45,000 nucleotides of DNA from NCBI GenBank assembly GCA_009839505.1, contig VXPO01000005.1, forward strand, positions 1 through 45,000. Reading direction: 5' to 3'. Source of the stretch: Gammaproteobacteria bacterium. Lineage in GTDB: Bacteria; Pseudomonadota; Gammaproteobacteria; Pseudomonadales; Azotimanducaceae. How positions within the stretch are numbered: position 1 is the first letter of the stretch; every line of letters starts with the position of its first letter. Position numbers and translations under genes: made by a program. Under the pieces are notes generated by a model, which worked only from the letters and a program-made list of their open reading frames with translations, ran no database searches and had not been told where the DNA came from. Below are positions 8,179 through 41,069 of this stretch, piece after piece.

Positions 8179-11100
8179 GTGGAAGAGGCTCTGGCAAACG
8201 CTAGGCAGTATCGAACGAAGGACGTCTTGCTCCGTACCACCGTCCGCCGGGCGATGTGGTTGATTGCGTTCCTATGTGTTGCGGGTTCTGTGTCCGCCCA
8301 GGCAAGGGACCTCTTCATGCCCGTCGACCGCCCGGCAGTGCCGCCTTCGGTCGACGACTCGGAGACGGACCTTCGAACCACCGCCGATGTACCGAACTGG
8401 GGCGGTGAGACTGAGAGGCACCGGCGCATGCGAGTCGACTTCACGGCGCTGGACGAAGTGCGCGAAGCGTTGGCCGACGGCGAGTCCCCGACGATCGGCG
8501 TGAACCTGTTCGAGGATGTGCGCTTCGAAGCCGTTGACCTGCGCACGGCCCCAACGGCGACGGGCTATTCGCTGGCGGCTTCGCTGCGGAACATTCCCCA
8601 CGGTACACTGACGCTGGTGGTCAACGGCGAACTCGTGACCGGAACGGTGCGCACGCCCCTGGCGACCTTCACCATCGACTCCTCGGGCGGCCCGGTCCAC
8701 ATTCGCAAGGTCGACCCGTCCACGCTCCGCAAGCTGGCGGAGCCGCTGGATCCGGCACGCCTTCCCAAGAGTTCCAGGGCCGTGGGCACCGGGGATCCAT
8801 CGGCTTCGGCGGAGGATCCATCCGTGGTCGACTTGCTCGTGCTCTTCACACCATCGGTCACCGATGCGCGCGGCGGAATTGTGCAGGTTCACGGCATGGT
8901 TGATCTTTGGGTGGCCGAAACGAACCAGGCGTTCGAGGACAGCGGCGCGGATGTTCGCGTGTTCCTGACGCGGGCGGTAGGCGTGGACTACCTGGAGGGG
9001 GGCGCCTCGAGTATCGATCTGTATCGGTTGGCGATTCCGGGTGACGGGTACCTCGATGTCGCGCATGAACTGCGGGAGAAGACCGGTGCGGATCTCGTTC
9101 ACCTAATCGCCTCGTCCAATGATGTCTGCGGCATCGCCTTCCTCATGCCCGGGATCTCAGCGGAGTTCGAGGATCGGGGCTTCGGCCTCACGAGCCACGA
9201 ATGCGGCGGCTCGACCTTTGCCCACGAGTTGGGTCACAACCTGAGTCTTCGCCACGACCGCTACGTGGATCCGTCCAACTCGCCGTACGCCTACAGCCAC
9301 GGCTACGTGAATCAGCGGGCGTTCGAAGAAGACGCCAGCGGTACCCAACGTTGGCGCACGATCATGGCGTACCCGAACCAGTGCTCTGAGTCAGGGTTCC
9401 AATGTCCAAGACTGCTTCGCTACTCCAACCCGGAGCAATCCTACATGGGCGATCCCCTCGGCGTTGCGGGGGACTCCCCGACCTTGCAGACCGACGGGCC
9501 CGCCGACGCACGCCGAAGCCTCAACAATGCCAGGGTCGTGGTGGCGGCATATCGGGGAGCGGGCCCCGACTTGGCGATCACGCCGGTGCTTACCGATCGG
9601 TCGTGGGACGCGGGTCAGGACGTCACCATCGTCGCCGCCGTGACCAACCAGGGAAGGATCGACTCGGGCGCAGCCACGGCGACCTACTACCGCTCGACGG
9701 ATCCGGTCATCGACACGGACGACACCGCGTTGGATTCGTTTGAGGTCGACACGCTTTCGGCGAAGGAAACCGACACCCACGTATTTGCGACAACGGCACC
9801 CGATGAGCACGGGCGGTTCTACTACGGGCTCTGCATCGGCGTGGTGGACGGGGAGACGGATACCACGAACAACTGCTCGGTGGGACTGGCCGTTTCCGTT
9901 GGTCCCACGGTAGCGGTCAGCGACACACGCATCGTCGAAGGTAACAAGCTGACGTTCTCGGTCGAAGCGTCGGCGGCGCAGTCCACTCCGGTCGAGGTCC
10001 GCTGGGAACTTCGGCAGGGCACCGCGGTAGCCGGTGTCGACTACGCCGATGCGGCGGGAACGATCACCTTCGCCGCGAACGACACATTCGAGACGGTGTC
10101 GGTGGATACCTTGGCGGACGAGCTACCCGAAGGCGAAGACACTCTAACGCTCGTGCTGGTCGGAACCTCGCCCCCTGGTAGCCTCGTGGTGAGCCCGGAC
10201 GGTGGAGAGGCAACGGGTACGATTCTGGACGATGACGACGACCTTCGAATTCCCGATGAGAGCCTGCGAGCCGCGCTGAATCGGGCGCTGGGGAAAGGGA
10301 GCGAAGAGGATGTCACCGCGGACGAGTTGGCGGAGCTCGCCTCGCTCGTCGTTCCGAGTCGCGGCATAGCTGATCTAACGGGCATCCAGGCTGCCACTGC
10401 CCTCAAACGGTTGGTGCTGAACGGCAACTCCGTGACGGACTTCGGTCCACTTCGCCACTTGGCCAATCTCACCCGGTTGGAGTTGGCCGAAAACGGGATC
10501 ACGGACGTCGTCGGACTGGCTGAACTGTCCAACCTGATCGACTTGGTGCTGTCCAAAAACGACCTCGACGACCTCGCGCCGCTTGCGGGGTTGACGGCCC
10601 TTCGATTGCTGGACCTGGAGTCAACGGGCGTTTCGGATCTGTTGCCTCTTGCCGGTTTGACGGGAATGGAGACATTGCATCTTCGCGACAACGCCGTGGC
10701 CGACTTGTCACCGTTGCAGGATCTCTCGCGCCTGTCGACCCTCGACTTGAACTACAACGACGTGTCGGATCTGCAGCCTCTCAAGAGCTTGACGCGCCTT
10801 GCCTGGCTTGGACTGTGGTCCAACGGGATCACCGATGTCGAACCCTTGCGGAACCTGGAGCAGCTCATCTGGCTCGACTTGGACGAGAACGCGGTCAAGG
10901 ACATCGAGCCGCTGGCGGGGCTCTCGGACTTGACTTTCCTGTGGCTGTTGGACAATGAGATTGCCGACCTCCCCAGTCTGGATGGGTTGGAGAGCATCGA
11001 AGGATTGGACTTGGCTTCGAATCGACTGGTCGACATCGGGCCGCTTGCATCGTTAGACACATTGGAACTCCTGGACTTGGGTGGCAATGCGATCAGGAGC

Positions 11101-13251
11101 ATCGAGGCCTTGTCGGGCCTGATCGGGCTCGAAGAGCTCTTCTTGGACAGCAACCGCATTTGGGACATCTCGCCTTTGGCTGGCATGACCCGGCTTGTCC
11201 GGTTGGATCTGGGCGACAACCTCGTTGCCGATCTGCAACCCCTCGCGGGTTTGACCCGTCTGCGGACCCTCGACCTGAACGACAATCTGATTCGCGACGT
11301 GGCCCCGCTCACCGACCTCACCGCGTTGCGGACGCTCCGCCTCGCCGACAACCGGATCCGCGACGTCGAACCGCTGGTCGACAACGCTGGCCTGCGTTTC
11401 GGCGATCGGGTCTACCTACAGGGCAATCCGCTGTCGTCGGCATCCGTCGACGACGTTGCGACCTTGCGGGGACGCGGCGTCACGGTGTTCGACGTTGGTC
11501 TGTCGATCGCCGCTGCATCTGCGTTGGAGGGAGACCCGCTCGAGTTCCTGGCCCGGTTGTCATCGGCGGTCGATGGGGATGTCAGTGTGAACTGGGCTGC
11601 GTTCGGGGTGACCGCGGACGAGCCCGACGACTTCGCCTCCGGCCAGTCCGGCACGGTCCGGATTGCAGAAGGCGAGACGGAGGCATCCTTCAACCTGCCG
11701 ACCTATCAAGACGACCTGGTGGAGCCGCATGAGACCGTCCTAGTCGGGTCAGCGATCGCTGGCGCGCCCAGTGGGGTCGCCTTTTCCGAGCGGCTGGCGC
11801 TGGGGCTGATCGCCGATCGGGATGGACCCCGTGCGGATGTGCCCGTGTTCGCGCCGGCGAGCGACGAGACGCGCCAAGGCTTCGTGCGGGTGTCCAACTA
11901 CCGAGGTGTAAGGGTCGTTCACGTCGACGCGTTCGACGACGCCGGCAACCGGCGCTCCACCTCGCTGGCCTTGAATGGGCTCGCGGCCGCCCATTTCAAC
12001 TCGGATGACCTTGAGGGCGGCAACTTCGGTAAGGGACTGTCGCGTGGCGTTGGAATGGGGACGGGTGACTGGCGTCTTGAAATGCGCGGCGCGAGTGTGG
12101 AGGTGCTCACCTACATGCGCACCAGGGACGGCTTCCTGACAAGCCTGCACGACCTGGTGCCGGCCGGCCCCGATGGCTACCGGGTACCGGTATTCAATCC
12201 CGGCAGCAACAAGAACCAGGTGAGTTTGCTGCGTTTGGTGAATGCCGGTACGGAAGACGCTACCGTGAATATCTCCGGCACGGACGATCGCGGTGACGCT
12301 TCCCCGGGAACCGTGCAGCTCGTCTTGGCTGCCGGCGAGTCCCGCTCCATCTCTGCGGCGGATTTGGAGTCGGGCAGTGGGCTCGACGGCGACGGCTTGG
12401 GCGACGGCTTCGGGAAGTGGCGGCTTGTAGTTGCCTCGGATGAGCCTGTCGGGGTCGCCAGCCTGTTGGAGAGCCCGACCGGGCATCTGACGAATCTCTC
12501 GACGACACCGGACAACAAGGAGTCAGTGGATGGCGAGACCCTGCATCGGGTACATCTATTTCCATCTGCCTCGGACCCCAAGAAGCGGCAGGGGTTCCTG
12601 CGGGTCGTCAATCGGGGCGCTGCCGGCACGGTCGAGATCCAAGCCTACGACGACACCGGGTACGATCCACCGGCGGTCACGCTGAACCTCGACGAAAACG
12701 AGACGGTCCACTTCAACTCGAACGACCTTGAATCCGGCGAAATGGAGAAGGGGCTTGCCGAAGGCGTTGGCTCGGGCCAAGGCGACTGGCGACTCGAGTT
12801 GACCAGTTCCCTCGATCTCGACGTGCTGACCTACATCCGGCGGACCGAGGACGGCTTCCTGACCAGCATGCACGACACCGCAACGGTGACCGACGGTGTT
12901 CATCACGTACCGATCTTCAACCCCGGCAGCAACCGCAACCAAGTCAGCTGGTTACGCCTGATGAACTACGGCTCGGAGCCCGCCATGGTTAGCATCCGGG
13001 GATTCGACGACACCGGTTCGTCCTACGGCATCGTGGAGTTGTCCGTCCCGGGCGAATCGGTGCGCATGCTCTCCGCCCAGGAACTGGAGGCCGGCGCCAG
13101 CGACTTCATGGGCACCCTGGGGGACGGTGTAGGGAAGTGGCAACTCTCGGTGCGGTCCGACTCGCCCATCCATGTGATGAGCCTCCTCGAAAGCCCTACT
13201 GGCCACCTCACCAACCTCTCGACCTCGACGGGAGTACTGTCGGCAGAGTGA
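8179..13251 (+). CDS. giant secreted metzincin-type protease with Calx-beta, LRR and C-terminal repeat domains
   Basis: Up to 1690 residues. Order: signal peptide (MWLIAFLCVAGSVSAQA); propeptide-like region; a metzincin catalytic domain (about 205-460) with zinc motif HELGHNLSLRHD (His349, Glu350, His353, His359) and Met-turn TIMAY (Met396); a CARDB-like adhesive domain (about 465-575); Calx-beta (about 580-680); fifteen 22-residue internalin-type LRRs (about 730-1075); a second Calx-beta-like domain (about 1110-1215); four repeats of about 115 residues to the end. GTG at 8179 has GGGAG six bases upstream; TTG at 8227 (after GAAGGA, giving MLRTTVRRAMWLIAF) and ATG at 8254 are also plausible and give cleaner signal peptides. 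Likely secreted or surface-displayed, cleaving or binding proteins outside the cell. Apparently monocistronic. Confidence 0.88.
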   Translation: MEEALANARQYRTKDVLLRTTVRRAMWLIAFLCVAGSVSAQARDLFMPVDRPAVPPSVDDSETDLRTTADVPNWGGETERHRRMRVDFTALDEVREALADGESPTIGVNLFEDVRFEAVDLRTAPTATGYSLAASLRNIPHGTLTLVVNGELVTGTVRTPLATFTIDSSGGPVHIRKVDPSTLRKLAEPLDPARLPKSSRAVGTGDPSASAEDPSVVDLLVLFTPSVTDARGGIVQVHGMVDLWVAETNQAFEDSGADVRVFLTRAVGVDYLEGGASSIDLYRLAIPGDGYLDVAHELREKTGADLVHLIASSNDVCGIAFLMPGISAEFEDRGFGLTSHECGGSTFAHELGHNLSLRHDRYVDPSNSPYAYSHGYVNQRAFEEDASGTQRWRTIMAYPNQCSESGFQCPRLLRYSNPEQSYMGDPLGVAGDSPTLQTDGPADARRSLNNARVVVAAYRGAGPDLAITPVLTDRSWDAGQDVTIVAAVTNQGRIDSGAATATYYRSTDPVIDTDDTALDSFEVDTLSAKETDTHVFATTAPDEHGRFYYGLCIGVVDGETDTTNNCSVGLAVSVGPTVAVSDTRIVEGNKLTFSVEASAAQSTPVEVRWELRQGTAVAGVDYADAAGTITFAANDTFETVSVDTLADELPEGEDTLTLVLVGTSPPGSLVVSPDGGEATGTILDDDDDLRIPDESLRAALNRALGKGSEEDVTADELAELASLVVPSRGIADLTGIQAATALKRLVLNGNSVTDFGPLRHLANLTRLELAENGITDVVGLAELSNLIDLVLSKNDLDDLAPLAGLTALRLLDLESTGVSDLLPLAGLTGMETLHLRDNAVADLSPLQDLSRLSTLDLNYNDVSDLQPLKSLTRLAWLGLWSNGITDVEPLRNLEQLIWLDLDENAVKDIEPLAGLSDLTFLWLLDNEIADLPSLDGLESIEGLDLASNRLVDIGPLASLDTLELLDLGGNAIRSIEALSGLIGLEELFLDSNRIWDISPLAGMTRLVRLDLGDNLVADLQPLAGLTRLRTLDLNDNLIRDVAPLTDLTALRTLRLADNRIRDVEPLVDNAGLRFGDRVYLQGNPLSSASVDDVATLRGRGVTVFDVGLSIAAASALEGDPLEFLARLSSAVDGDVSVNWAAFGVTADEPDDFASGQSGTVRIAEGETEASFNLPTYQDDLVEPHETVLVGSAIAGAPSGVAFSERLALGLIADRDGPRADVPVFAPASDETRQGFVRVSNYRGVRVVHVDAFDDAGNRRSTSLALNGLAAAHFNSDDLEGGNFGKGLSRGVGMGTGDWRLEMRGASVEVLTYMRTRDGFLTSLHDLVPAGPDGYRVPVFNPGSNKNQVSLLRLVNAGTEDATVNISGTDDRGDASPGTVQLVLAAGESRSISAADLESGSGLDGDGLGDGFGKWRLVVASDEPVGVASLLESPTGHLTNLSTTPDNKESVDGETLHRVHLFPSASDPKKRQGFLRVVNRGAAGTVEIQAYDDTGYDPPAVTLNLDENETVHFNSNDLESGEMEKGLAEGVGSGQGDWRLELTSSLDLDVLTYIRRTEDGFLTSMHDTATVTDGVHHVPIFNPGSNRNQVSWLRLMNYGSEPAMVSIRGFDDTGSSYGIVELSVPGESVRMLSAQELEAGASDFMGTLGDGVGKWQLSVRSDSPIHVMSLLESPTGHLTNLSTSTGVLSAE
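10366..11400 (+). repeat. fifteen in-frame internalin-type leucine-rich repeats
   Basis: Coding repeats of 22 residues with consensus LxxLxLxxNxIxDxxPLxxLxx, for example LTRLELAENGITDVVGLAEL and LRTLDLNDNLIRDVAPLTDL. They are preceded by an internalin-like cap (IPDESLRAALNRALGK). The DNA copies have diverged, so this is an old protein repeat rather than a recent tandem duplication. Confidence 0.9.
11836..13230 (+). repeat. four C-terminal domain repeats, pattern A-B-A-B
   Basis: Units begin near residues 1220, 1334, 1456 and 1575. A-type units contain RQGFVRV or RQGFLRV, FNSDDLE or FNSNDLE, GDWRLE and LTYxR-x-DGFLTS-HD; B-type units contain VPVFNPGSNKNQV or VPIFNPGSNRNQV, GKWRL/GKWQL and SLLESPTGHLTNLST. 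A and B share the same framework (xxGxGxW-L, then L-S/T-xxS/T), so all four probably come from one ancestral domain. I cannot name the domain. Confidence 0.8.
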
Positions 13252-32691: not shown

Positions 32692-32783
32692 GGGTACCAA
32701 GATACCGGAATGACGTCTCGCCATCGCGGTGGACTTCGACTGGTGTATTCTCGAACTACGGTACGCAGGAGATGGGAGGCGGC

Positions 32784-33248
32784 ATGATTGCGGTCGGAGA
32801 CGCGGCCCCGGACTTCACCCTGAGAAGCCACCGGGGCGACGAGATCAGCCTGGCCGGTTTCAGGGGCGACAAGTGGGTCGTACTGCATACCTTTCCGTTG
32901 GCGTTCACCGGCGGCTGAAGCAATCAGACCACGAACTTCAACCGTGCGTTGAAGCAGTTCGACGAAGCCGGTGCCGCTCTCATCGGCTTGAGCGTGGACT
33001 CGGGTCCGGCGCTGGGCGCATGGTCCACGGCCATGGGAGGCATCCGCCACCCGCTGCTCGCGGATTTCTGGCCGCATGGCGGCGTCGCCAAGACCTATGG
33101 CCTGTTCAACGAGGCGGCAGGCATCGTCAACCGCACGCTCCTGATCATCGACCCCGATGGTGTTGTACGGCACACGGAGGCCCACCAACGAACGCTGCCC
33201 GATCCGGCTGCGGCGCTGAGTAAGCTGAAGGAGCTACAAGACGCGTAG
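32784..33248 (+). CDS. selenocysteine-containing peroxiredoxin (TGA at 32916-32918 read as Sec45)
   Basis: 154 residues including a predicted Sec. Thioredoxin-fold AhpC/TSA peroxiredoxin that would reduce hydroperoxides. N-terminus MIAVGDAAPDFTLRSHRGDEISLAGFRGDKW is standard, then VVLHTFPLAFTGG and an in-frame TGA where the peroxidatic Cys of the T-x-x-C motif belongs (T-G-G-U-S-N-Q). The same frame continues for 110 codons with the normal second half: ALIGLSVDSGPALGAW, IRHPLLADFWPHGGVAKTYGLF, NRTLLIIDPDGVVRHTE. The ATG at 32784 has GGGAGG just upstream. A SECIS-like hairpin follows the TGA. A gene-finder would split it into two ORFs or call it a pseudogene. No other Cys is present, so recycling would use an external thiol. 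Confidence 0.87.
32919..32960 (+). promoter_or_regulatory. candidate bacterial SECIS element
   Basis: Hairpin CTTCAAC-cgtgc-GTTGAAG at 32936-32954: 7-bp perfect stem, 5-nt apical loop with G in the second position; outer bases GAA and TTC can extend the stem past a small bulge. The loop starts 25 nt after the TGA, inside the 16-37 nt range described for bacterial SECIS elements that bind SelB. Confidence 0.65.
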
Positions 33249-38606: not shown

Positions 38607-38751
38607 CTGATCAAGCCCGTCCATGGGCTTGATCAGGAGCAAAACAAAAGCGCGGTTTTGTTTTGCTCACAAATTCAATGGCTTGCGCCATCGAATTTGG
38701 CGTCACATCCCTGTGCCGCGCTAGGGAAGCTCTTAATCAGAGCTTCCCTAG
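38607..38751. repeat. chain of four long hairpins after the LRR gene
   Basis: CTGATCAAGCCC-gtccat-GGGCTTGATCAG (38607-38636), GAGCAAAACAAAA-gcgcgg-TTTTGTTTTGCTC (38637-38668), CAAATTC-a-ATGGC-ttgc-GCCAT-c-GAATTTG (38670-38699, one mismatch) and CTAGGGAAGCTCT-taatc-AGAGCTTCCCTAG (38721-38751). The last contains the stop codon of the LRR gene at 38748. The four stems differ in sequence and lie almost end to end between the LRR gene and ribH, all on the minus strand. Confidence 0.7.
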
Positions 38752-41069
38752 AGCGTCTCAACACGTCCCCACAGGAGCGATCGTTGTGGTCGCCCCTGGT
38801 CGTCGACGAGGTCAAACCCTTGCATCTGTTCGTAGGGCGGCTCGCCGGGCGGCGGGTGCAACGTCAGCCGAACGTCGACGGACTCGTTGTCCTTGTCGGG
38901 GACGACGGTGATTGTCTGGCTGGCGACGGATCCCGCAGGAAGCACGACGGAGATAGCTCTCCCGGGTGGGGTACCTCCCGGTGAGTTGGGTACTGCCATG
39001 GTGCCACCGGTCGCTGTGAGGGAGGCCACTACCGCGACGGGGATGCCGAGGGGCGCTTCAATGACGTACGAGGTGGCGTCCGTCTGTCGGAGCTGAACGG
39101 GAACTGCAAACGGTTCACCGGGGTTCTTGCCAAGATTCAAAGTCACGAGTTTGTCGACACCAGCGAACGTGCCCGGCGGCAGTGCCGTTAGTTGGTTCTC
39201 CCAGAGGACAAGCTCACGCAGGTTGCCGAGATCCACGAACGGGTTCGGCGGTAGCGCCGTTAGGTTGTTCCCGGCGAGATCAAGGTATGCCAGCCGAGAA
39301 AGTCCATCGAAGGCACCGTGGGGCAACGAGTGCAATTGATTGCGGACAAGTGACAACCGCAACAGGTTGTCGAGCCCGCGGAACACACCGTCGGGCAGCG
39401 TGCGAAGTTGGTTGTTTTGCAGATCGAGCCAAGAGAGCTTGGAGAGTCCGCGGAAGATGCCGTGGGGCAGCGCCTCCAACCGGTTCCCGTCCAGCCCAAG
39501 ATATTCCAGATTCGCTAGTCTGGAAAAAAGGTCCTGTGGCAGCGATTCCAGTGCGTTTTCATCCAGCCAGAACAATTTCAGTTCGCCGAGATCCCGGAAC
39601 GAGTCGCTGTCGAGCGAGCGTATCTCGTTGCGGCTCAGGCTCAACGTCTCGAGGTACGACAATCCGTGAAGAGTCGAGGCGGGAAGCGACAAGATGCGAT
39701 TGCCCGACAACCCCAGTTGAGATAATCGGGACGTGTCGACGAACAGGTCTTCCGGCAAGCTTTCCAGTTCGTTACCGCTGAGTTCCAACTCCACGAGCGC
39801 GTGCAAGCCGGACAAGCTCTCGCGGCCAATCGATTTGAGGTCGTTGGAAGAGAGGACCAGCCGTTCGAGCTTTCGGAGGCCGCGGAACACGCCTTCCGGC
39901 AGCGAAGACAGGTCGTTCCTATAGAGTTCGAGCACCCGAAGTTCGGCTAGGCCACGGAACATGCCCTCGTGCAAGGCGGACAGTTCGTTCTCGTGGAGAT
40001 CGATCAGGCGAAGCTCAGAGAGGCCGGCGAACTGCGCGGCGGAAAGTTCGCTCAATTGGTTCCGCTGGAGGCGTATTTCGTGCAGGTTTTGGAGATTCGA
40101 AAACAACCCCGGCGGCAACGAGCGAAGCTGGTTTCTTTCGAGGTGCAATCGTTCAAGCTTGACGAGATCGGCGAGGGTGCGCGGGTCAAGTTCAGCCAAT
40201 CGGTTGTCGTTGAGGTGGAGGTGGCGGAGTTCGAAGAGACCCCCCAAGATATCTACGGGTAGTGCATCGAGCCGGTTCGACGCCAGTCCGAGATAGATCA
40301 GCTTGGGCGTATTGGCCGTCAGCCGCGGTGGCAAGCTATCGAGCCGATTGTTAGCAAGCTCCAGATGGGCCAAGGATGGGTTCTCATCGAAGAGGCCCGC
40401 AGGCAACGTCTCTAGCCCGTTGGCGCGCAGATTCAGGATTTGCAGAGCTTCCAGTCCCCGGAACGCCTGAGGAGAAAGCACGGTTAGCTCGTTGACCTGC
40501 AGGTTCAACTGTCGAAGGTTGCCGAGCCCGTGGAACACCCCGTCGGGTAGTGCGGACAGGGCGTTCGACCAAAGGTCGAGTCGCTCAAGGTTGGTGAGTC
40601 CTTCAAAAGCGTTTGCGTCGAAGGTCGACAGACGGTTCGCCCACAGGTCCAGCCGCTTCAGTTCGGCCGGGCCATGGAAAGCCCCGCGTGGCAATTCGAC
40701 GAGACGGTTGTCGCCCAAGGCTAGTCTTTCGAGTCGGGGAACGCCTGCCAAGAACCCTGCGGGTAGCGTGGCGATCTGGTTCTGGTCGAGAAGCAATTCG
40801 GTCAGATTGACCAGGCCGTCGAAGTCTTCCGCCGCAAGGGATTCGATTGCCTTTTGGCGGAGATTCAGCGTCCCCTCAATGCCAGCGAGGTCGCTGGCGG
40901 TGACCTGGCCGCAATCGTGGACTGCGGCAAGCTTGCGGATAATCGCGTCCCTGACCGGTTCGGTTCGGGTGCAGATGCCTTGGGCCGCTGCCACGACACA
41001 CATGGCGATGCCCATGACAGCCAGTGCGACCTGAACGGATGACGAACGGTACCGGGGCAGCTCGGCCAT
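38748..41069 (-). CDS. exported leucine-rich-repeat protein, 24 typical repeats
   Basis: 773 residues. Signal peptide (VALAVMGIAMCVVAAAQG), then an LRR N-cap with two cysteines (ICTRTEPVRDAIIRKLAA, VHDCGQVTASDLAG), then about 24 repeats of 24 residues, consensus LxxLxLxxNxLxxLPxGxFxGLxx, the eukaryote-like typical class. A C-cap begins NPGEPFAVPVQLRQTDA, followed by a beta-rich tail ending VETL. N-cap and C-cap match the LRR module in the gene at 41790. ATG 41069 overlaps the previous stop by one base (TGATG), so it is coupled. Likely secreted or surface protein that binds other proteins or glycans; no catalytic domain seen. Confidence 0.88.
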   Translation of the reverse strand: MAELPRYRSSSVQVALAVMGIAMCVVAAAQGICTRTEPVRDAIIRKLAAVHDCGQVTASDLAGIEGTLNLRQKAIESLAAEDFDGLVNLTELLLDQNQIATLPAGFLAGVPRLERLALGDNRLVELPRGAFHGPAELKRLDLWANRLSTFDANAFEGLTNLERLDLWSNALSALPDGVFHGLGNLRQLNLQVNELTVLSPQAFRGLEALQILNLRANGLETLPAGLFDENPSLAHLELANNRLDSLPPRLTANTPKLIYLGLASNRLDALPVDILGGLFELRHLHLNDNRLAELDPRTLADLVKLERLHLERNQLRSLPPGLFSNLQNLHEIRLQRNQLSELSAAQFAGLSELRLIDLHENELSALHEGMFRGLAELRVLELYRNDLSSLPEGVFRGLRKLERLVLSSNDLKSIGRESLSGLHALVELELSGNELESLPEDLFVDTSRLSQLGLSGNRILSLPASTLHGLSYLETLSLSRNEIRSLDSDSFRDLGELKLFWLDENALESLPQDLFSRLANLEYLGLDGNRLEALPHGIFRGLSKLSWLDLQNNQLRTLPDGVFRGLDNLLRLSLVRNQLHSLPHGAFDGLSRLAYLDLAGNNLTALPPNPFVDLGNLRELVLWENQLTALPPGTFAGVDKLVTLNLGKNPGEPFAVPVQLRQTDATSYVIEAPLGIPVAVVASLTATGGTMAVPNSPGGTPPGRAISVVLPAGSVASQTITVVPDKDNESVDVRLTLHPPPGEPPYEQMQGFDLVDDQGRPQRSLLWGRVETL

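Follow-up and report, generated by a model that had tools for sequence, protein, structure and literature searches.

The gene at positions 32784–33248 of the window (the whole 45,000-nucleotide stretch of DNA analysed here) very probably encodes an AhpE-type peroxiredoxin that is a selenoprotein, with an in-frame UGA specifying selenocysteine (Sec) at the peroxidatic position; this high confidence excludes the identity of the reductant. As a selenoprotein gene it is well supported; it has orthologues in 22 genomes (its own included), which are inferred to form a single family of Gammaproteobacteria, and further relatives in Dehalococcoidia bins. In the proposed mechanism, SelB with Sec-tRNA would bind a hairpin downstream of the codon, and the ribosome would decode the UGA as Sec (Table 1). 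The presence of Sec-decoding genes, the conservation of the TGA, a constrained hairpin and purifying selection all agreed with this reading, which had been proposed earlier from the letters of the window alone (hereafter, the sequence-only reading). From these data we infer the actual insertion of Sec and the peroxidase activity of the product.

Table 1. Predicted features of the selenoprotein gene and the evidence for each
Feature	Position	Strand	Basis
AhpE-type peroxiredoxin gene, 154 residues with predicted Sec45	32784..33248	+	Reading frame, AhpC-TSA profile, AhpE match by sequence and fold
GGGAGG, likely ribosome-binding site	32774..32779	+	Read in the sequence
UGA codon, predicted selenocysteine at residue 45 (peroxidatic position)	32916..32918	+	TGA conserved in the best-scoring loci and family orthologues
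Predicted bacterial SECIS hairpin, 7-bp stem, loop CGUGC at 32943–32947	32936..32954	+	Frozen codons, covariation, published SECIS rules
Codon of predicted active-site Arg117 (Arg116 in AhpE)	33132..33134	+	Invariant in 30 aligned rows

Reading frame, protein family and candidate reductants

A single frame ran from the ATG, which follows the GGGAGG after 4 nt, to a TAG ending at 33248, and its sole internal stop was the TGA at residue 45 of 154, within the motif FTGG-TGA-SNQ (T42-G-G-U45). Plain translation with code 11 truncates the peroxiredoxin at residue 44. The Pfam AhpC-TSA profile matched residues 4–130 with 107 bits (cut-off 26), indicating that both halves around the TGA belong to one domain. 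The sequence-only reading had described one frame from a supported start codon, interrupted only by a TGA at the Cys position of a T-x-x-C motif, with peroxiredoxin sequence on both sides and no Cys elsewhere; the frame, the profile match and the total absence of Cys from the 154-residue translation bore out each of these points. The open frame itself was rejected as evidence, as the window contained 56 TGA codons (34 on the forward strand and 22 on the reverse strand, 32916 included) that were preceded by 44 or more open codons and followed by 100 or more. As judged from sequence comparison, the case rests on the homology on both sides, the position of the TGA and its conservation across genomes, and the open frame by itself is no proof. 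A scan for promoters and terminators found none.

In a sequence search against solved structures, the first seven rows were all AhpE (114–117 bits), and the next was a 2-Cys enzyme with 62 bits (best 60 of 143 rows). The structural model (pLDDT 96) matched AhpE with a TM score of 0.92 and an rmsd of 1.4–1.5, and the first 12 among the 50 listed fold matches were AhpE. Three positions, Pro38, Arg117 and residue 45 (with C standing for Sec), were invariant in 30 aligned rows, and T42 was nearly so. Over the first 150 codons, no other Cys was present in 21 of 24 distinct orthologues; two of the remaining three (L117 and L121) have Cys71, and the third (L008) is out of frame after a frameshift. 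Given that AhpE is the closest family and that no other Cys is present, the protein is probably a one-Sec AhpE requiring an outside thiol. The guess that the local sequence might mark an unusual subgroup thus acquired a definite form, namely an FTGG-U-(S/T) clade of the AhpE type, mostly without other Cys.

In the proposed catalytic cycle, Sec45, set among Pro38, Thr42 and Arg117, would attack the hydroperoxide to form a selenenic acid. Since there is no resolving Cys, an outside reductant would be needed, most likely glutathione alone or together with glutaredoxin. A glutathione synthetase gene (gshB) was found in the own genome (398 bits, cut-off 299), which makes glutathione the first candidate, although this assignment is tentative and falls a little short of probable. 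Glutathione and glutaredoxin would be analogous to the reductants of AhpE, which is reduced by mycoredoxin either in a single step or after an initial reaction with mycothiol (PMC4360819, from the part of the text available).

Reduction of the selenoprotein by the thioredoxin system, and not by glutathione/glutaredoxin, is a less likely alternative that nevertheless carries some weight. A thioredoxin reductase is encoded 2.7 kb beyond the gene for tRNA-Sec (L130:13480–14490; TIGR01292, 379 bits, cut-off 343), but on a different contig from the peroxiredoxin. Moreover, thioredoxin usually attacks a disulfide, and the protein has no second Cys or Sec with which to form one. Neighbouring frames of 22 relatives were grouped with those of the window, and annotation covered nine proteins (seven in the window and two beside relatives), none of which was a redox partner. 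The neighbours comprised an amidase, an APH-type kinase, an aminotransferase, a TonB C-terminal protein, one protein without a Pfam match, a dienelactone-hydrolase-like protein and a GH20/APH protein, and PhyH adjoined the peroxiredoxin in two relatives. Elsewhere in the window, two large proteins (8179–13251 on the forward strand and 38748–41069 on the reverse strand) had leucine-rich-repeat matches, all far below curated cut-offs.

With glutathione retained as the first candidate, a broader proposal can be made, which we regard as speculative and rather unlikely as a whole: the AhpE-type enzyme might constitute a distinct selenoenzyme class with Sec as the sole reactive chalcogen and no Cys form seen in its clade, using a one-Cys scaffold for the fast selenenic-acid/glutathione chemistry that selenium glutathione peroxidases perform, with Sec offsetting the missing resolving thiol and guarding against over-oxidation. 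A natural one-Sec AhpE would offer a direct way to ask what selenium gives a peroxiredoxin without a resolving Cys.

Evidence for decoding of the UGA as selenocysteine

Among the best 80 of 185 homologous loci found, TGA occupied position 45 in 13, which were the 13 best-scoring loci (44–95% identity), and TGC or TGT occupied it in the other 67; the alignment with Cys-containing homologues suggested in the sequence-only reading thus placed the TGA at the position of a Cys. An orthologue (61–99% identity) was found in 22 of 206 genomes of the own family, the source genome included, with one TGA in each; two of these were partial matches (G186 and G194), and two genomes (G187 and G194) gave additional rows for C-terminal pieces without the TGA site. 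Any match at 1e-10 was found in 91 of the 206 genomes, and in the own genus an orthologue was present in 12 of 16 genomes. In a sample of the order, only 3 of 390 genomes had a match at 1e-20, all three from the own family. No relative was found on virus contigs, and 350 plasmid records had a match, the best place of each being below 60% identity (comparison by identity). The same TGA was present in separate assemblies, including those of L006 (OX638346.1, a 4.3-Mb chromosome assembled as one contig) and L010 (on a contig of 4.36 Mb), and a base error at this codon is therefore very unlikely.

Several observations on individual relatives accompany this distribution. The nearest orthologue (L008/L112, G194:C230) shows 95% identity up to a frameshift at about residue 111, caused by either assembly error or decay. 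At G187:C45:2066–2311 (L134), a second copy is represented by a C-terminal fragment that lacks the Sec region. Very similar genes occur in a bin labelled Deltaproteobacteria (L009, SP124) and one labelled Gammaproteobacteria (L011, RS426), reflecting a mislabelled bin or a recent transfer. In addition, many distant peroxiredoxins of the family (about 28%–38% identity) have one in-frame TGA somewhere in the match (e.g., G185:C201:28139–28510, G188:C1:1838406–1838777 and G036:C93:36196–36564), and the own family may be rich in selenoproteins.

The hairpin (CTTCAAC-CGTGC-GTTGAAG) was located where the sequence-only reading had placed it, beginning 17 nt after the TGA, with seven base pairs, a G at loop position 2 and 24 nt between the TGA and the loop. 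Codons +7 to +11 (TTC AAC CGT GCG TTG) were frozen: among 24 distinct orthologues, pairs with the same residue used the same codon in 100% of cases (276/276 pairs for four of the codons and 232/232 for one), compared with an average of 0.50 for 76 other codons. The mean for codons +7 to +12 (0.96) was the highest of any six-codon stretch scanned. The stem was 97% paired in 19 sequences (of 26 distinct), and five of its seven pairs had changed on both sides; none of 500 shuffles reached the observed covariation, and shifted versions of the stem were only 26%–52% paired. This covariation extended across three groups, with most double changes coming from L013–L014 and L122–L125, i.e., from few events. 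The two Dehalococcoidia bins (L013 and L014) carry the same CGTGC in a different stem, one codon closer to the TGA, and L122–L125 have yet another stem at the SECIS place, without a G in the loop of L123. A stem of at least six pairs was present in all 27 distinct TGA sequences (the longest in L113 being another hairpin) versus 23 of 72 Cys sequences, and such a stem with a G at loop position 1 or 2 was present in 24 of 27 versus 17 of 72. Taken together, the frozen codons and the covarying stem indicate that, on comparative grounds, the hairpin is a bacterial SECIS.

The rules for bacterial SECIS elements given in the available part of PMC13188914 are a loop of 3–9 nt, a stem of 4–16 bp, a G at loop position 1 or 2, a UGA-to-loop distance of 16–37 nt and a minimum free energy of −7.5 kcal/mol or lower. 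The hairpin agrees with the rules for loop (5 nt), stem (7 bp), G (position 2) and spacing (24 nt); as a 30-nt piece in isolation it reached −7.1 kcal/mol, narrowly short of the energy rule, for which the stretch to be folded is unspecified in the part of that paper available. A 60-nt fold reached −14.9 kcal/mol with a different hairpin preferred, and was no better than shuffled sequences (z −0.95; 41 of 200 shuffles as good). The single-sequence fold was rejected as evidence on this account, and the competing hairpin was also discarded for want of conservation, since 72.9% of its cells were paired, a value equalled or exceeded by 266 of 500 shuffles. There was no match in Rfam. A SECIS model (R1), which is narrow and provides no count of the selenoproteome, scored the peroxiredoxin site at 70.6 bits in a scan of the own genome; the next four matches scored 11–17 bits (E 0.13 to 9), and none of these had a TGA followed by more than 27 open codons.

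The source genome (4.7 Mb, 181 contigs, 96% complete; window on contig C107) contains the genes on which the sequence-only reading depended. selA, selB and the tRNA-Sec gene lie in this order in one cluster (C150:7643–10793), with 479 bits for SelA (cut-off 23), 371 bits for SelB (cut-off 242) and 69 bits for tRNA-Sec (gathering cut-off 47; anticodon TCA by ARAGORN), and SelD (256 bits, cut-off 125) is encoded on C129. Among 14 well-known control genomes, a selA match was found in 2 and tRNA-Sec exceeded the cut-off in 5, making selA together with selB more telling than tRNA-Sec. A selA match was found in all 22 genomes with a TGA orthologue (at only 1.9e-5 in G182) but also in 176 of the 206 family genomes, so its presence discriminates little. 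selB was detected in 21 of the 22 orthologue genomes (20 over the cut-off) and tRNA-Sec in 18; neither was found in the assembly of G195, and no tRNA-Sec was found in those of G194, G082 and G186, these assemblies being 64%–92% complete. Regarding the surroundings of these genes, selD (L097, G000:C129:6844–7749) lies inside an open frame of 729 residues, more than twice the SelD model, which suggests fusion to another domain, of the sort known as Ndh-SelD in the accessible text of PMC2398784. The sel cluster is followed (L130:11741–17868) by genes for an ECF sigma factor, a FecR-like protein, a thioredoxin reductase and a TonB-dependent receptor.

A general or suppressor mechanism that would insert Trp or some different amino acid at the UGA, in place of Sec, therefore appears highly improbable: nothing beyond the open frame speaks for it, whereas the aligned residue is Cys in the 67 of 80 loci without TGA, the sel genes are present, and the hairpin conforms to the SECIS rules except for the narrowly missed energy value.

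Selection and history of the selenocysteine position

With Sec as the preferred reading, the gene also shows the signature of a functional coding sequence. The dN/dS analysis covered 22 of the 24 distinct orthologues, the frameshifted L008 and L011 (N) being dropped. The median was 0.24 upstream of the TGA (24 codons; dS finite in 187 of 231 pairs) and 0.17 downstream of the hairpin (53 codons; 169 of 231). Rows were aligned from the TGA, here as for codon use, so that those with a gap of one codon around residue 30 are out of register more than about 15 codons upstream; the sole possible effect is a higher dN/dS in the upstream part. Both flanks of the TGA are thus under purifying selection, which argues against a pseudogene. 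The alternative in which the TGA is a genuine stop of a pseudogene, or a miscalled TGC, can draw on the 56 similarly flanked places in the window and on the frameshifted L008. It is extremely improbable, however, because all 22 family orthologues and the 13 top-scoring loci among the 80 carry the TGA, selection continues after it and the hairpin is frozen. Of the outcomes that the sequence-only reading had named as counting against it, the absence of sel genes and a base other than TGA do not apply, nor does pseudogene decay, given the purifying selection; 1 of the 22 family orthologues is frameshifted (L008 in G194), far from the TGA.

The tree of Sec and Cys forms comprised 96 rows from the window and 110 loci, after the exclusion of 14 copies or pieces and the loss of one row for coverage or identity. 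The main Sec clade contained 22 rows on one side of a branch with support of 94/85 (not starred), without any Cys member, and included the own family, the Dehalococcoidia-labelled L012–L014 and L009, labelled Deltaproteobacteria. L122–L125 formed a separate Sec group on a long branch flagged as unsure. The three Sec/Cys changes counted on the tree include L018, which was mislabelled as Sec owing to a stop at another place in its row and has a TGC codon. From the supported Sec-only clade and the separate group, Sec looks old and stable in the clade, and one or more further Sec groups lie close by. This second group of TGA peroxiredoxins (L122–L125 in G040, G053, G035 and G034; match from 1501) has the motif WTPN-U-STEM, a covarying hairpin of 10–11 bp after the TGA and, unlike the Cys-free protein of the window, a Cys near the C-terminus.

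According to the available part of PMC1794560, the Pseudomonadales sequenced by that time had no selenoprotein other than FdhA; the nearest relatives here, which are labelled Pseudomonadales or Gammaproteobacteria, have the predicted Sec peroxiredoxin. The FdhA match in the own genome contained no internal stop.

Comparison with known peroxiredoxins

Lists of selenoproteins have included TxxU peroxiredoxins from the Sargasso Sea survey onwards, if not earlier, with 43 sequences in that survey (PMC1088965; also PMC2398784; both available in part). Those in the surveys (COG1225 or PF00578) resemble the present protein in the PxxxTxxU motif, the peroxidatic Sec and the bacterial SECIS (PMC1088965, PMC2398784, PMC9312934, PMC13188914, as far as their text was available). 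The surveys differ in treating Prx as one family, which may include sequences of the AhpE-type Sec branch. The term "AhpE" does not occur in the available text of PMC13188914, PMC9312934 and PMC1794560, nor does "1-Cys" in that of PMC13188914. No report of a Sec-bearing AhpE-type enzyme was found among the titles and beginnings of abstracts listed or in the accessible part of PMC12697902, in a search that left subscription literature mostly outside. Thus, TxxU Prx is known as a kind of selenoprotein, and the AhpE-type Sec branch, which in the material available was not found described by itself, may sit inside the Prx family of the surveys.

The NCBIfam models, including PrxU and Prx-SUH, all scored below cut-off for the window protein and three relatives (L006, L013 and L125). 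PrxU (NF040737) is also a peroxiredoxin, but the window protein, with 64.3 bits against a cut-off of 270, lies far below it, and the three relatives scored 60, 82 and 82. This model is presumably linked to the selenoprotein peroxiredoxin of Eubacterium acidaminophilum. The Sec enzyme of that species is cited as the tested TxxU case in the available parts of PMC13188914 and PMC9312934. Prx-SUH (NF045827; 36 bits, cut-off 298) is likewise a selenoprotein thiol peroxidase but has a CxxU motif, in contrast to TxxU here (PMC13188914, in the part available). The closest known system is AhpE of Mycobacterium tuberculosis (1xxu, 1xvw, 4x0x and 5id2), which shares with the window protein its length, fold, FPLAFTG motif, DFWPHG segment, active-site Arg (R116, named in the title of structure 4xih) and single peroxidatic residue. 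The difference lies in that residue, which is Cys in AhpE and would here be Sec, encoded with a SECIS hairpin.
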